Position numbers and translations under genes: made by a program. This document shows positions 24,564 through 32,777 of a stretch of 43,405 nt of DNA, piece after piece. Origin of the DNA: Chloroflexia bacterium (GTDB lineage: Bacteria; Chloroflexota; Chloroflexia; DTKN01); assembly GCA_016928715.1 (NCBI GenBank), contig JAFGKG010000019.1:1-43405 (forward strand), written 5' to 3'. The notes under the pieces are model-generated. The model saw only the letters and a list, made by a program, of their open reading frames with translations. It was not told the DNA's origin and searched no databases. Position 1 is the stretch's first letter; each line of letters opens with the position of its first letter.

Positions 24564-25703
24564 TTAGGGCGAATCCTGCCAGCGCCGCAAGAGCAGCCAG
24601 CCCAGCAAGAATAATACCGTCGTCACGGCCGCCCGCAGCAACACGATAACCCAGTCGCGGTCCACCAGGCAGAGGGCCAGGATAGCTGCCCCCAACAGAA
24701 CCATCCACCAAACCGGCGCCCAGCACTCCCTGGGTCGCCCTGCCATCCTCCTCCCTGAGGGAGGTTGCTCTCGCCCTGACGCTTCAATCTGGGACAACCA
24801 AGCCATCCGCGCCAACTGAACGGCCCGGTCGGCTCGCTCCAGGTCATAGCCCCACTGCACCAGGGCCTCCTGCAGCCGCTCCTCGTACCAGGAAAAAAAG
24901 CCCTCTCCATCCTGGCGCAGCTCACGCCCGATCTGCCCGTAGAGGTAGCTACTACTGCGCAAGAGATTGTGCCGGCGGCTCAACCGGGCCAAACCCTGCC
25001 CGGCCACACGGGAGGCCTCGCGCAAGGATCCATGAGGCTGACCGGATTCCCCCGCCAGGGCCGCCAGGGCCGTATTCTCCAAGCGATCCAAGGCCGACCA
25101 AAAGGCCGCCCGCTCCTCCCGACCATATTGGCGCAGTTGGTGCAAAGCACGATGCAGATAGAGTTCGGCCCGCATGAAGGAGGCGTTATCCTCCCACAAC
25201 AAACTCTCTACGCCCTGCCGTACTCCTTCCGTGGGTGCATAGAACCAGGCATAGGCCGCGGTCACGGCACCACGCTCCACCATGGCCGGCGCGCTGACCA
25301 GCCAGACCCGGCCTACCGGCAGCAGCACCACCGGCCGCGCGGCCTCCTGGGACAAGCCCAGGGCCTGCGCCAGCAGATTCTGCTCCTCATAAGGGCCGGC
25401 TGCCACCGCCCCCAAATAGACCTGGCTCACCCCCCAAAAACTCTCCGGAGGTCGATCCCAAAAGGTCCCCAACCAGCGGCCCATCTCGTCCGAAAGCTGC
25501 TGCCAGACCTGTATCTCCCAGCCCCCGCGGCGAGACAATTCGACCTGCACCACGGTGGCCCCGGCCGTACTGGTGCTCTTTCTTCGCGGCACGCTCTCCT
25601 CCGTCGGCGGCAGCGACTGCACCACCTCCCAAAGCTCACTACCCTGGCGATCCCCTGCTGCGAAAAAAAAGGCCACTACTAGGGCGGGGTCATGAAACAC
25701 CAT
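24564..25703 (-). CDS. Membrane protein of unknown function in the usual murB position
   Basis: About 379 residues, family not recognised. The N-terminal half (1 to about 170) is alpha/beta-like, with VVQVELSRRGGWEIQVWQQL and RPVVLLPVGRVWLVSAP. The middle (about 175-320) is predicted helical, with many Leu, Arg and Glu. Two membrane helices close the protein (about 331-346 and 352-372), with a short Asp/Arg turn, so most of it lies on one face of the membrane. It has no FAD-binding motif and is not MurB. It overlaps murC by 14 bases with ATG 25703; a TTG at 25709 is an alternative. Its place among wall-synthesis genes suggests an envelope role, by inference. Confidence 0.75.
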   Translation of the reverse strand: MVFHDPALVVAFFFAAGDRQGSELWEVVQSLPPTEESVPRRKSTSTAGATVVQVELSRRGGWEIQVWQQLSDEMGRWLGTFWDRPPESFWGVSQVYLGAVAAGPYEEQNLLAQALGLSQEAARPVVLLPVGRVWLVSAPAMVERGAVTAAYAWFYAPTEGVRQGVESLLWEDNASFMRAELYLHRALHQLRQYGREERAAFWSALDRLENTALAALAGESGQPHGSLREASRVAGQGLARLSRRHNLLRSSSYLYGQIGRELRQDGEGFFSWYEERLQEALVQWGYDLERADRAVQLARMAWLSQIEASGREQPPSGRRMAGRPRECWAPVWWMVLLGAAILALCLVDRDWVIVLLRAAVTTVLFLLGWLLLRRWQDSP

Positions 25704-27093
25704 AGCCAACTTGCTCCTCTTGATCCCGCAAGCGGGATAAAAGCCTGGGGCCCAGGCCCGTAATGTCGCCGGCCCCCAGAGTCAATACAACGTCCCCCGA
25801 ACAGAGCCGTTCTAACAACCAGGAGAGCGCCTGGTCCAACGTAGCCACATAGTCAGCCGGAACCGAGATCTGCTCCGCTACCAGCGCGCCCGAAACGTCA
25901 CCCGGGTCAATCTCCCGCGCCGCATAGACCCCCGTGACCAACACCTCATCCGCCTGCGAAAGGGCCCCGGCAAAAGCGGCCGCGAATATGCGCGTCCGGC
26001 TGTAGGTGTGCGGCTGAAAGACGGCCACCAGCCGACGTCCGGGGAAACGCTGCCGCGCTGCCTCCAAGGTCGCCCGGACCTCACTGGGATGGTGGGCATA
26101 GTCGTCCACAACCCGTATGCCCTGGGCCAAGCCCAGATATTGAAAGCGCCTCTGCACGCCGCTAAAGGACTCGAGGATCCCGCCAATTTCGGCAAGGTCC
26201 AATCCTTCCTCGGCAGCCACCGCCAGAGCGGCCAGCGCGTTGGCCACATTGTGCCGGCCGGGCTGGGCCAGCCGGAATCGCCCCAGGGCCTGGCCCTCTC
26301 GCAGCACCGTAAAGGTGCTCCCCTGTGGCTCCAAGAGCACGTCCCCCACCCCCCAGGTCGCCCCAGGCGCTAGCCCATAGCCCAACACTGGGGCCGCCGG
26401 CCGGGACAGTCCCCAAGCGCCCGGATCGTCCCGGCAGAGCAGGACCGTGCCCTCCGGCGATACCTGCTCGATAAAGGCGGCAAAGGCCTGGCGTACAGCG
26501 GCCTCGTCAGGATAGCAATCGACGTGATCCCACTCCACATTGGTGACTACCGCAACCTCCGGCTGCAGCGCCAGAAAGGTGTGATCGTACTCGTCCGCCT
26601 CCAGGACAAAACGGCGGTCCGCGCCGGCATGGCCGTTGCCCCCCAATATGGGCAGGTCCCCCCCAATGATAAAGGAGCAGTCCAGGCCGGCCGCTCGCAA
26701 TAACAAAACCAACATGGCCGTGGTGGTGGTCTTGCCATGGGTGCCAGCGATAGCCAGGCAGCGCCGTCCCCCCGTCAAGCAGCGCAGCATCTGGCCCCGA
26801 TGCCACAGCGGCAAGGACAAACGCCGCACCTCGGCCAACTCAGGGTTGTCCGGTGGGACCGCCGAACTCGCCACGACAACATCAGCGCCCTGGACATGCC
26901 CGGCCGCGTGGCCGACAAATACCCGCGCCCCCTGGGCCTCCAGTTGGCGCAAGCCGGCGCTGTCCCGCAGATCCGACCCAGACACGGCGTGCCCACGCTC
27001 CAAGAGCAGCCGGGCAATGGCGCTCATGCCGGCGCCGCCGATACCCACCAGGTGAACCCGCTCGTCACCCCGCCAAGCGTGCGTCTCCGCCAC
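25690..27093 (-). CDS. murC: UDP-N-acetylmuramate--L-alanine ligase
   Basis: ATP-dependent ligase adding L-Ala to UDP-MurNAc. 467 residues. Seen: N-terminal HLVGIGGAGMSAIARLLLE, the ATP loop AIAGTHGKTTTTAMLVLL, LEADEYDHTFLALQP, NVEWDHVDCYPD, and the C-terminal VVDDYAHHPSEVRATLEA and FQPHTYSRTRIF, all MurC-specific. The open frame begins at 27165, inside the CvpA-like gene. I choose GTG 27093 because GGAGGAA stands just upstream and the upstream part has no homology. It is 19 bases after the CvpA-like stop. Confidence 0.95.
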   Translation of the reverse strand: MAETHAWRGDERVHLVGIGGAGMSAIARLLLERGHAVSGSDLRDSAGLRQLEAQGARVFVGHAAGHVQGADVVVASSAVPPDNPELAEVRRLSLPLWHRGQMLRCLTGGRRCLAIAGTHGKTTTTAMLVLLLRAAGLDCSFIIGGDLPILGGNGHAGADRRFVLEADEYDHTFLALQPEVAVVTNVEWDHVDCYPDEAAVRQAFAAFIEQVSPEGTVLLCRDDPGAWGLSRPAAPVLGYGLAPGATWGVGDVLLEPQGSTFTVLREGQALGRFRLAQPGRHNVANALAALAVAAEEGLDLAEIGGILESFSGVQRRFQYLGLAQGIRVVDDYAHHPSEVRATLEAARQRFPGRRLVAVFQPHTYSRTRIFAAAFAGALSQADEVLVTGVYAAREIDPGDVSGALVAEQISVPADYVATLDQALSWLLERLCSGDVVLTLGAGDITGLGPRLLSRLRDQEEQVGYGVS

Positions 27094-27112: not shown

Positions 27113-27730
27113 TCACTGACTGGCTTTTTTACGATTGATCCAGGCCACGGCCAAAAAGAGCACAATGATCAAGGCAATCATACCATAGATCAGGGCCGTC
27201 AGCCTCTCTGCCTCGAGACTCTGAATTGTCACCGTCGGCAGATCGACGCTGCGCCCCTCTTCCAAAGGGTTAAAGATCGGCAAAAGGCGGGCCAGAACCA
27301 AAAAGCCGTTCATCGCCCCAAAGAGCCCCCCAAACAGACGGCCCATAAAATTGACGCCCCGCCGCTTGCCCAAAATCGCGCCGGCCCGGTAAGCCACCAG
27401 AATCATCAACACGTACATCACCAACTGGATCCAGGGGTTGTCCGCCGGAATCAGCCCCTCTTCGCTGGGCCAATCCGTGGGCGTGGGCTTGCCCATCAGG
27501 ATGGCAAAAGCCAGCGGAAAAGCCCCCACCAAGCGGTTGATCAGCAGCACCATAAACCTATTAAACCTTTCCCCCAAATTCGACACAATCAGGGCCAGGC
27601 CAATCGCCGTAAAGCCCTCCTCCTGCCAACCCCGCCGGAATCCATAGATGACGCCCGGCAGCAGCAGGATAAAGATCAACTCCAAATTGCTGATTGTGCC
27701 GTCCACCAACAAATCGACAAAATCGCTCAT
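27113..27730 (-). CDS. Multi-pass membrane protein, CvpA-like
   Basis: 205 residues with about four or five membrane helices. YGFRRGWQEEGFTAIGLALIVS and the later FMGRLFGGLFGAMNGFLVLARLL, with the glycine-rich GGLxGAxNG segment, resemble the CvpA (colicin V production) family, though the match is loose. A loop of about 30 residues (TPTDWPSEEGLIPADNPW) separates helices. Its function is unknown; CvpA homologues affect envelope stability and often lie near housekeeping operons. It sits between murG and murC, not a standard dcw member. Confidence 0.6.
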   Translation of the reverse strand: MSDFVDLLVDGTISNLELIFILLLPGVIYGFRRGWQEEGFTAIGLALIVSNLGERFNRFMVLLINRLVGAFPLAFAILMGKPTPTDWPSEEGLIPADNPWIQLVMYVLMILVAYRAGAILGKRRGVNFMGRLFGGLFGAMNGFLVLARLLPIFNPLEEGRSVDLPTVTIQSLEAERLTALIYGMIALIIVLFLAVAWINRKKASQ

Positions 27731-28852: not shown

Positions 28853-30038
28853 AGCTCGGCTCCCTCGTGTTCTCATAACAGGATAGATTTAACAGGATGC
28901 CCATTGCCGTCATACAGGAGGCCAGCGAAGACCCTCCGTAGCTGACAAAAGGCAGGGTCATGCCCGTAAAGGGCAACAAACCGGCCACCACCATCATGTT
29001 CAGCAAGGCCTGAAAGGAAATCCAGCTGGTAATGCCCACACCCAGCAACAAACCGTAACGGTCCGGCGCCCGCAGGGCAATGGTATAGCCCCGGTAGGCC
29101 ACCCATAAAAAGAGCGCGATAAACAGCAGGCAGCCCAAAAGGCCCAATTCCTCTCCGATCACGGCGAAAATGCTGTCACTGTAGGCCGACGGCAGCCAGT
29201 AGAACTTTTGACGCCCCTGCCCCAAGCCAACGCCGAACAGTCCGCCCGTCCCCAGGGCCATCTGGTTGTGCACCAGGTGATAACCAATACCGGTGGGATC
29301 GTCCCAGGGATTGATAAAAGCCATCAGGCGGGCCCAGCGGTACGGAGCAAAACGGGCCAACAACAAAAAAATGCCCCCACCGAGCAAACCCGCCAGGGTG
29401 AACTGTTTCAAGTCAGCCCCGGCAACCAAAAAGACCACCGCCCCAATGAGCACCAGGATCACCGCCGTGCCCATGTCCGGCTCCAAGATCATCAGGCCGG
29501 CCAACAATCCCAAGATCGTGGCAAAAGGAACCAAACCATAGGCCACCCGACGCAGGCGCTGACCCCGCTTGGAAAGCCAGTCGGCGATGTAAACGACAAA
29601 GACCAAGTAGGCCAACTGGCTGGGCTGGGCGCTAAAAGGACCAATCTTGAACCAACGCTTGGCCCCGTTGATCTCGGGCACTATCGCCTCGGGCAGGAGA
29701 ACTACGGCGAGCAGGAGCAGCACCACCACAACCATGCCCGACACGCTAAAGCGGCGCCAAAAACGATAGTCCACCCGCATGGCGACCAAGGCGCCCAACG
29801 CCCCCAACAAAACCCAACGCAACTGCCGGCCCAGATAATACATCGAGCCGCCCTCATGTTCATAGGCCGCGGAGACAAAACTGGCGCTGTAAAGCATTAC
29901 CAAGCCCAACACCAGGATGGCCCCAAAAATCGCCAGCAGCCAATAGTCCGGAGAGCCCGCCCGGTTGAACTGCAGGGCCTCCCGCCAGGTTCCCGGAGCC
30001 GACCAAATACCTCGATCGTACGCCTGGTTCTCCGACAT
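28746..30038 (-). CDS. ftsW: Division SEDS peptidoglycan glycosyltransferase FtsW
   Basis: 430 residues with about ten membrane helices. Seen: SPDYWLLAIFGAILVLGLVM start, NGAKRWFKIGPFSAQPSQLA, LEPDMGTAVIL, INPWDDPTGIGYHLVHNQMA, then AYSDSIFAVIGEELG, holding the Asp that is catalytic in SEDS enzymes, and LPFVSYGGSSLASCM. With FtsI it makes septal glycan. The usual FtsW end is reached at about LLNLSCYENTR; a further 35-residue tail rich in Arg follows and is encoded over the start of murG. The ATG overlaps the murD stop as TGATG; a GTG three bases earlier is also possible. Confidence 0.94.
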   Translation of the reverse strand: MSENQAYDRGIWSAPGTWREALQFNRAGSPDYWLLAIFGAILVLGLVMLYSASFVSAAYEHEGGSMYYLGRQLRWVLLGALGALVAMRVDYRFWRRFSVSGMVVVVLLLLAVVLLPEAIVPEINGAKRWFKIGPFSAQPSQLAYLVFVVYIADWLSKRGQRLRRVAYGLVPFATILGLLAGLMILEPDMGTAVILVLIGAVVFLVAGADLKQFTLAGLLGGGIFLLLARFAPYRWARLMAFINPWDDPTGIGYHLVHNQMALGTGGLFGVGLGQGRQKFYWLPSAYSDSIFAVIGEELGLLGCLLFIALFLWVAYRGYTIALRAPDRYGLLLGVGITSWISFQALLNMMVVAGLLPFTGMTLPFVSYGGSSLASCMTAMGILLNLSCYENTREPSYARPHRRRGDWWTRLSRPGRSGRSPRREPGVVRRH

Positions 30039-31498
30039 CACTCTTTCTCCTCCGCTGCTGCTGTCCCCTCTAGTAAGGCCACCTCTTCTCGAAAGCGCTG
30101 TCCGCGCTCAAACTCGTGGCGAAACATACCGAAACTGGCACAGCCCGGCGAAAGCAGGACGGTGTCCCCTCTGCCGGCGGCCTGCCTAGCCCGGCGCAGC
30201 GCAGCGGCAAGCTCGTCAAAACGCCCTAGAACCCTGCCGCCCACCCCGGCCAGCACCAGCTCATGGTACAGCTTGTCCGTCGCCGAGCCCTCCAAGAGGA
30301 CAATGTCCCGCACCCGCTCGGCAATCGCCCAGGCCATGTCTCTATAGGGCAGATCCTTGTCCGCTCCCCCAGCAAGCAGGATCAGCGGGCCGGACAGGGA
30401 CTGCAGCGCCGCAATCGTCGCCGCCGGGCTCGTACTGGTCGTATCGTTGATATAGGTCACCCCATCCAACTCGCGCACCACCTCCAAACGATCGGGCAGC
30501 CCCCGAAAGCCGGCCACCGACCCGGACAGTTGGGCCGGCCGCAAGCCGTACAGGCAGGCCGCCGCGGCCGCCGCCAGGACATTGTCCAGATTGTGCTGTC
30601 CCGGCAATCGGACCTGCTCCCGAACGCACAACTCCTCCTCCCCTTCCGCCTCCACCCACAGCAGACGCTCACCATCCAGCAGGGCCGCCCCCGCTCCTAA
30701 GGGCAGGACCATGCCGTCCCGGCTGCGCAGAGCATCCCCCTCACGCTGCAAGCCCACCCCAAACCAGGCTACCCGCCGCGCCGGGGCGTCCCGGGCAAAC
30801 TCGCGCACGGCCGCATCGTTAGCGTTCAAGACCAAGCCGTCCGGCGGTCCCTGGAAACGATAGATGTAGCGCTTGGCTGCGACATAGGCCTCCCAACTCG
30901 GATAACGATTCAAATGGTCCGGATACAGATTGGTCACGACGGCCAGCATCGGGGCCATCCGCCGCTCCGCCAAGCCCTCCAACTGCCAACTGGACAACTC
31001 TAACACCACCGCCGTGTCCGGCCCGATTCGCGGCAGCGCCTCCAAGGCCGATATACGGATGTTGCCGGCCACCACCGTGTCCACACCCGCGTGCCGCAGC
31101 ATGTGGCCGAGCAGGCTGGTGCTCGTGCTCTTGCCCTTGGTCCCGGTCACCCCCAGGATCTGGCCCGGGCAGCGGGCGAAGAAAAGCGTCATCTCCATCT
31201 CGATCGGGATCCCCTGCCGCCGCGCCTCCTCCAAATAGGGCGAATCGAGGGGCACCGCCGGATTGCGCACAATCAGCTCGGCCTGGCGAAAATCCTCCCG
31301 CCGATGCTCGCCCAGGACATAGCGGACCGGCTGCCCCGCCAATGCCCGCAGCGGGGAGGCCAACTGCTCGGCCGGGCGCAGGTCGGTCACCGTCACCTGC
31401 GCCCCCTGGCGCAGTAAAAACTGGGTGACCCCCAAGCCGCCGCCGTGTACGCCCAGCCCCATCACCAACACCTTGCGGTTCCTGAGGTCCAACATCAT
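30038..31498 (-). CDS. murD: UDP-N-acetylmuramoyl-L-alanine--D-glutamate ligase
   Basis: Adds D-Glu to UDP-MurNAc-L-Ala. 486 residues. Seen: VLVMGLGVHGGGLGVTQFLL, the ATP loop LGVTGTKGKSTSTSLLGHML, LELSSWQLEGL, NLYPDHLNRYPSWEAY with the metal/substrate His, INDTTSTSPAATIAAL, GGADKDLPY, and LLSPGCASFGMFRHEFERGQ near the end, typical of MurD. The N-terminus (MMLDLRNRKVLVMGLGVHGG) has Gly-rich insertion after GLG compared with E. coli. It lies 39 bases after the 56-codon small gene and overlaps ftsW by one base. Confidence 0.96.
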   Translation of the reverse strand: MMLDLRNRKVLVMGLGVHGGGLGVTQFLLRQGAQVTVTDLRPAEQLASPLRALAGQPVRYVLGEHRREDFRQAELIVRNPAVPLDSPYLEEARRQGIPIEMEMTLFFARCPGQILGVTGTKGKSTSTSLLGHMLRHAGVDTVVAGNIRISALEALPRIGPDTAVVLELSSWQLEGLAERRMAPMLAVVTNLYPDHLNRYPSWEAYVAAKRYIYRFQGPPDGLVLNANDAAVREFARDAPARRVAWFGVGLQREGDALRSRDGMVLPLGAGAALLDGERLLWVEAEGEEELCVREQVRLPGQHNLDNVLAAAAAACLYGLRPAQLSGSVAGFRGLPDRLEVVRELDGVTYINDTTSTSPAATIAALQSLSGPLILLAGGADKDLPYRDMAWAIAERVRDIVLLEGSATDKLYHELVLAGVGGRVLGRFDELAAALRRARQAAGRGDTVLLSPGCASFGMFRHEFERGQRFREEVALLEGTAAAEEKE

Positions 31499-31537
31499 TC
31501 ATCCGTCCTCATACGACGCTCTGCCCCCCCCGACAAC

Positions 31538-31708
31538 TCACCGCTCCTGGGCCACCTCTCGCAGGCGGCGGAGGATCTCTTTTTTCAGCTCCTGCGCCGG
31601 CCGGCCCTTGAGCTCGAGTTGGGGCAGAATGTCCCCCAGCCCTACTTGTACATTGCCCTTGCGTCCGCACAGTTGATGCCAGGGATCCTTTGCCGTTCTT
31701 TGAGCCAT
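31538..31708 (-). CDS. 56-residue microprotein between mraY and murD
   Basis: A short reading frame on the operon strand fills most of the 256-base gap between mraY and murD. The ATG at 31708 follows GAGGGTGG at good spacing. The product reads MAQRTAKDPWHQLCGRKGNV, then VQVGLGDILPQLELKGRPAQ and a C-terminal amphipathic helix (ELKKEILRRLREVAQER region). It is charged and soluble, with no membrane segment. I know no family. The Shine-Dalgarno, strand, position and helix pattern argue that it is real; conservation would settle it. Confidence 0.55.
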   Translation of the reverse strand: MAQRTAKDPWHQLCGRKGNVQVGLGDILPQLELKGRPAQELKKEILRRLREVAQER

Positions 31709-31754
31709 GTTCCACCCTCACTGTGTTCATCTGCCGTGCTTTCGACCCCGGCTT

Positions 31755-32777
31755 TTAATTCAAGGCCAGGGCTACGCCTACCATCGCCGCAATGACCCCA
31801 ATAATGGCCAGGCGGGCCACGATCTGTACCTCCGACCACCCCAGCAGTTCAAAGTGATGGTGCAGCGGGGTCATACGAAAGATGCGCCGGCCCTCACCGT
31901 AACGCCGCTTGGTCCACTTGAAATAGCCCACCTGCAAAATTACCGAACTCGCCTCGATGACAAAGACCACGCCAATGATCGGCAGCAGGATCCACTGCCA
32001 GGTCATCAAGGCCACCACGCCCAGGCCGGCCCCCAGGGCCAGACTGCCCGTGTCCCCCATAAAGACGCGCGCCGGATAGGCGTTGTACCAGAGAAAGGAG
32101 AGCAGCGTGCCCATAACCGTGAAACAAAAGGGCAGCAGGTAGTCCTGTCCCTGCAGAAAAGCGATAACCCCATAGGCCGCAAAGGCCAGGCCGGCCGTGC
32201 TGCCGGACAACCCATCCAATCCGTCGGTCAGGTTGACGGCGTGGGCAAAAAAGGCAATGATCAGCGCGGCAATAGGCACGTAAAACAGGCCCAGATAGGA
32301 CTGCAGATCCACCCCGCTCAGGAAAGGCACGTAGGTAGGAGTGGGCCCGACATAGTTCTCGGAATACAGCATCCAGGCCGCGGCCAGGGCGATAGCAAAT
32401 AGCCAGGCGAACTTGACCCGCGCGGACAGACCCTGCCCCTTCCGCCCCACCAGGTTGAAAAGATCGTCCGTCGCCCCCAAAATGCCGCAGCCGAGGATGA
32501 CGCCCACCGGTAACAGCATCGAGTAACGTCCCCCGCGCAGGTTGAACAGCAGGGTGACCACGACAACCGTCACCACGATCATCAGTCCACCCATGGTGGG
32601 GGTGCCCGACTTGGCTTGATGCCGCTCGGGACCCTCTTGACGGATCTTTTTGCCGATCCGCCGCTGCCGCAGGAAACGCACCAGCCAGCCGCCCCACAGA
32701 ACGGTGAACAAAAAGGCCACTGCGCCCTGCACCAACGCTTCGGACATTTCGCGGGCCAACAAAGGCCGGGGAAACAT
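31755..32777 (-). CDS. mraY: Phospho-N-acetylmuramoyl-pentapeptide transferase
   Basis: Makes lipid I from UDP-MurNAc-pentapeptide and undecaprenyl phosphate. 340 residues, about ten membrane helices. Seen: the GTPTMGG motif after HQAKS, GATDDLFNL with the metal Asp pair, AVNLTDGLDGLSGS, NAYPARVFMGDTGSLALG, and RMTPLHHHFELLGWSE with the three His. All polar active-site residues of MraY are present. The ATG at 32777 lies two bases after the murF stop; a second ATG at residue 11 is possible. Confidence 0.97.
   Translation of the reverse strand: MFPRPLLAREMSEALVQGAVAFLFTVLWGGWLVRFLRQRRIGKKIRQEGPERHQAKSGTPTMGGLMIVVTVVVVTLLFNLRGGRYSMLLPVGVILGCGILGATDDLFNLVGRKGQGLSARVKFAWLFAIALAAAWMLYSENYVGPTPTYVPFLSGVDLQSYLGLFYVPIAALIIAFFAHAVNLTDGLDGLSGSTAGLAFAAYGVIAFLQGQDYLLPFCFTVMGTLLSFLWYNAYPARVFMGDTGSLALGAGLGVVALMTWQWILLPIIGVVFVIEASSVILQVGYFKWTKRRYGEGRRIFRMTPLHHHFELLGWSEVQIVARLAIIGVIAAMVGVALALN

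Follow-up and report, generated by a model that had tools for sequence, protein, structure and literature searches.

We describe a 56-codon open reading frame (ORF) between mraY and murD in the dcw cluster of a Chloroflexia genome. The reading we favour, with a probability of roughly 55%, is that of a real small gene of the lineage-restricted (orphan) kind. Its putative product is probably a small, basic and soluble protein of the dcw operon that is restricted to this lineage. Lineage-restricted small ORFs occur inside conserved bacterial operons, and the ORF resembles this general class in being short, preceded by a Shine-Dalgarno (SD) sequence, coding-like and without a convincing homologue. 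Unlike the members of that class, however, it sits at a junction that is usually tight, and it is known here from sequence alone. Provided that it is translated and maintained by selection, the ORF would represent a rare gene gain in a cluster that is among the most stable in bacteria. For the present it adds to the orphan small ORFs, in a cluster that already has a much larger ORF, orf381, for which 60 other class genomes gave no match.

Results

The ORF, its start signal and its neighbours

The window, that is, the whole stretch of 43,405 nucleotides analysed here, is contig C7 of an assembly of 3.54 Mb in 226 contigs (88.86% complete, 5.01% contamination). The best relatives of its MurD are from Chloroflexota, several of them named Thermomicrobium, Roseiflexus or Herpetosiphon, which would place the window in that phylum. 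On the minus strand, the dcw cluster reads mraZ, mraW, ftsL, ftsI, murF, mraY, the ORF, murD, ftsW, murG, a CvpA-like gene, murC, orf381, ddl, ftsQ, ftsA and ftsZ. Pfam was used to check four neighbours (mraY, murD, orf205 and orf381). The upstream neighbour mraY (31755..32777, minus strand) carries PF00953 and PF10555 above cut-off, and the downstream neighbour murD (30038..31498, minus strand), which has its own SD (GAGGA), carries PF08245, PF21799 and PF02875 above cut-off. The names of the other genes (mraZ, mraW, ftsL, ftsI, murF, ftsW, murG, murC, ddl, ftsQ, ftsA and ftsZ) are what we take their translations to be.

The initial annotation had placed a 56-residue frame at 31538-31708 on the operon strand between mraY and murD, and such a frame is indeed present on the minus strand, spanning 171 nt from ATG to TGA and translating as MAQRTAKDPWHQLCGRKGNVQVGLGDILPQLELKGRPAQELKKEILRRLREVAQER. 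Its claim of a good Shine-Dalgarno also holds, with a GAGG core (31716..31719, minus strand) that can be read in the sequence 7 nt ahead of the ATG; a core SD precedes 54 of the 104 training genes versus 10.3% of 20,000 random positions. The remark that the frame is too short for the usual gene callers is doubtful, since the default minimum length of common gene callers is below 171 nt.

The mraY-murD spacer (31499..31754, minus strand; 256 nt, 61% G+C) is the longest among the 15 gaps listed for the dcw cluster, the second longest being that between ftsA and ftsZ (112 nt). From the mraY stop to the start of the ORF there are 46 nt, and from its end to the murD start 39 nt; when it is counted as a gene, these two gaps are similar to others in the cluster. 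Three other ORFs cross the spacer, one of 73 aa on the same strand and two of 83 and 116 aa on the opposite strand. A promoter scan was negative from 31400 to 31850, murD contains one terminator-like site, and ARAGORN did not find a tRNA. The sole repeat found was an overlapping pair of 18-nt arms, forming an imperfect palindrome within the ORF. The longest G run of the gap, eight residues on the operon strand (31524-31531), follows the ORF stop and precedes the murD start.

Coding statistics

The length of the ORF weighs little, because when the 256-nt gap was shuffled 20,000 times with dinucleotides preserved, an ORF as long or longer turned up in 21.8% of cases. Its length and coding score together were reached in none of the 20,000 shuffles. 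The score of +0.185 bits per codon can be compared with 0.16 for murC, 0.21 for ddl and 0.22 for murF, and all remaining ORFs of at least 20 aa that overlap the gap score below zero, including the plus-strand ORF of 116 aa (-0.24), which lies in antisense frame 0 of the candidate. G+C at the three codon positions is 0.78, 0.40 and 0.69, against training means of 0.69, 0.45 and 0.79. Thus, when judged by the codon composition of the host genome, the ORF reads as protein-coding.

To train the coding model we took 139 long ORFs from the window and 20 further stretches (243.6 kb in total) and kept 106, discarding the other 33 for low score; the training set is itself filtered on score, and is therefore tilted to high scores and flatters real genes. 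The score of the ORF is equalled or exceeded by 84.9% of 892 real 56-codon pieces, compared with 0.1 to 0.7% of wrong-frame pieces, except in antisense frame 0, where the figure is 20.1%. The same exception applies to shadow ORFs of 45-120 aa: in four wrong frames (two on the same strand, and antisense frames 1 and 2) none of 533 reached the score of the ORF, whereas antisense frame 0 of the training genes gave 18 such ORFs out of 86. Of the 369 ORFs of 45-120 aa in the sampled 243.6 kb that are clear of the training genes, 16, the candidate included, scored as high.

The score can be divided into a contribution from amino-acid composition (+0.194 per codon) and one from synonymous codon choice (-0.009 per codon). 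Under random synonymous choice the latter would be -0.247 (sd 0.119), and 2.3% of 5,000 random versions reach the value of the ORF; in real 56-codon pieces it is +0.231 (sd 0.185), with 10.1% at or below -0.009. Synonymous codon choice in the ORF is therefore weakly supportive of coding.

The mraY-murD junction in relatives

We compared the junction at class level and beyond, the genome being the only one of its order in the collection searched, using 179 loci: the window's own, 69 named contigs, and stretches from other class genomes (109 of the 148 in which mraY was matched; 29 came from one search and 80 were our own choice), with many genomes present in both locus sources. In 22 of these loci one of the two genes had no match within the stretch (mraY in 18, murD in 4); they are uninformative on the gap for that reason, and the 4 without murD may have a long one. 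Removal of 33 duplicates, defined by an identical last 90 nt of mraY, gave 124 distinct pairs including that of the window, a few of which are from other phyla.

Gaps across the 124 pairs have a median of 13 nt; 96 are shorter than 50 nt, 17 are 50-99 nt and 11, the window's included, are at least 100 nt, so that 113 of the 123 other pairs have a gap below 100 nt. Only four gaps exceed 256 nt, those in L217 (281 nt), L238 (417 nt) and the Portnoybacteria contigs L027 (575 nt) and L034 (1458 nt). The gaps in L217, L027 and L034 contain ORFs longer than 56 aa, none of which is similar to the candidate by tblastn. When the ORF was searched by tblastn against all 179 loci, the 12 matches at E≤10 comprised itself and 11 at E≥0.63; against the 157 gap stretches (with 60-nt flanks, duplicates kept), it retrieved itself and 7 matches at E≥1.8. 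A conserved dcw-cluster gene was thus not found at the mraY-murD junction, at class level and beyond, and the position of the ORF is not common to the class-level relatives examined.

Homology searches

The ORF was searched for in 61 relatives, in 158 genomes of the class and in 400 of the phylum (sets that overlap and include the own genome), with weak matches only and no convincing homologue. The best match outside the own genome (E 0.0035) runs across an in-frame stop, and the next best (E 0.0043 and 0.0046) extend over 18 residues. At E≤0.05 there were matches in 18 of 399 other phylum genomes, where about 20 would be expected from the per-genome E-values, and at E≤0.2 in 20 of 157 other class genomes, where about 31 would be expected; since these counts are no higher than the E-values predict, the weak matches are at chance level. 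L122 and L123, among the best phylum matches (61% over 18 residues), look like chance, and the matching stretch in L123 is antisense to an ORF of 569 aa. Besides the ORF itself, the own genome gave two matches (E 0.37 and 0.62). Among viral contigs, 58 stretches fit a search pattern and none was confirmed, and plasmid and phage collections gave matches only at E≥2.

No Pfam family matched the ORF above cut-off. The one match below cut-off, DUF6243 (PF19756; 14.3 bits against a gathering score of 25, E 0.049), aligns the charged C-terminal helix of the ORF (residues 34-55) with positions 33-54 of a 67-position profile; unlike a member of this family, the ORF matches over that stretch only, and we do not assign it there. 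NCBIfam gave no match, the best PHROGs match had an E-value of 0.3, and the best PDB sequence match, adenylate kinase (E 0.7), was rejected. A search of one library of open-licence papers turned up no account of a small gene between mraY and murD.

As a calibration, MraY and MurD were themselves cut into 14 pieces of 56 residues, of which 4 had matches in no more than 23 of the 178 related loci. Missing homologues are therefore weaker evidence than they appear, and that most relatives lack the spacer is a firmer point than the absence of sequence matches.

The predicted protein

The predicted product has a mass of 6.5 kDa, a pI of 10.2 and a GRAVY of -0.86, and lacks a transmembrane stretch (best 19-residue hydropathy 0.26). 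An amphipathic C-terminal helix, as claimed in the initial annotation, was recovered, its moment of 0.64 being equalled by 2.0% of 20,000 residue shuffles. AlphaFold2, run on the single sequence without an alignment, gave a weak model (mean pLDDT 70.5, pTM 0.38) with a short helix at residues 9-12, a hairpin at 14-23, and helices at 24-30 and 38-54. Foldseek found no match to the predicted structure in the PDB.

Discussion

The initial annotation's reading of the frame as a microprotein is borne out in part, as codon statistics, the SD and the spacing favour a translated frame. Its suggestion that the product could bind a wall or division protein gained no support: the searches gave no convincing homologue, no family above cut-off and no fold match, and class-level relatives examined do not share the position. 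In favour of a gene we counted the coding score, the shuffles, the 0 of 533 shadow ORFs, the SD, the division of the gap into two of ordinary size, the amphipathic helix, the lack of a membrane span and the helix at residues 38-54 in the AlphaFold2 model. Against it we counted that the score is driven mostly by amino-acid composition, that equally good scores are found for 18 of the 86 shadow ORFs of antisense frame 0 and for 16 of the 369 ORFs clear of training genes (itself among them), that the training set was filtered on score, that there is no convincing homologue, and that the structural model has a pTM of 0.38 and no Foldseek match. On balance we rank a gene as the likeliest reading, followed by a spurious ORF, a remnant and a leader ORF.

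A spurious ORF within a lineage-specific, GC-rich and untranslated spacer is possible, though we consider it unlikely. An ORF of such length arises readily in shuffled versions of the gap, three longer ORFs cross the same spacer, the synonymous bias is weak, and the class and phylum genomes searched yielded no convincing homologue. However, chance would also have to account for an SD at the proper spacing and for a combination of length and score that no shuffle reproduced, and none of the other spacer ORFs scores above zero. If a larger or mobile gene had decayed in the spacer and left a coding-like frame behind, this would explain a gene-like composition without a family above cut-off, and compared with most of the class members examined the spacer is an insertion. 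Yet the ATG, SD and stop are all intact and no longer parent was found in the own genome, its two other matches being those at E 0.37 and 0.62, which makes a remnant distinctly improbable.

More doubtful still is a leader or coupling ORF, the translation of which would govern access to the murD start without yielding a useful protein. The murD gene does begin 39 nt after the end of the ORF and a hairpin is predicted to span its start, but 39 nt is a long distance for translational coupling and murD has an SD of its own. RNA folding is also ordinary, both over the whole mraY-murD gap (z -1.37) and at the murD start (z +0.84), and in Rfam nothing in the window reached the gathering score, the one match next to the gap being at chance level (E 0.76).

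If the ORF is an orphan small gene, as we favour, a spacer that most class-level relatives lack would house a gene that is transcribed along with the dcw operon. Its own SD would drive translation of the 6.5-kDa basic soluble protein, which may fold, going by the weak model, into a short hairpin, a helix and a long C-terminal helix. We speculate that this last helix could pair with itself or with a partner, giving a small accessory or adaptor protein made together with the operon. A more specific version, in which a newly arisen or inserted dcw gene of one order-level lineage encodes a small helical protein that is produced along with MraY and MurD and modulates lipid-I or UDP-MurNAc-dipeptide synthesis, is highly improbable. 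Such a gene would be a gain in a cluster whose evolution is inferred in PMC8871954 to have proceeded mainly by loss and relocation, likely with no gain.

Two further ORFs of the cluster deserve mention. The 205-aa CvpA-like protein encoded by orf205 (27113-27730, minus strand), in the murG-murC interval, matches PF02674 below cut-off (E 0.0088) and is matched in 15 of 60 other relatives, several times within a few kb of mraY on the same contig; a weak second match lies elsewhere in the own genome. In the murC-ddl interval, orf381 (24564-25709, minus strand; 381 aa) has no Pfam match and was found in none of the 60 other class relatives searched at E 0.001. Its codon statistics are gene-like (+0.19), making it a full-size orphan candidate of the dcw cluster.
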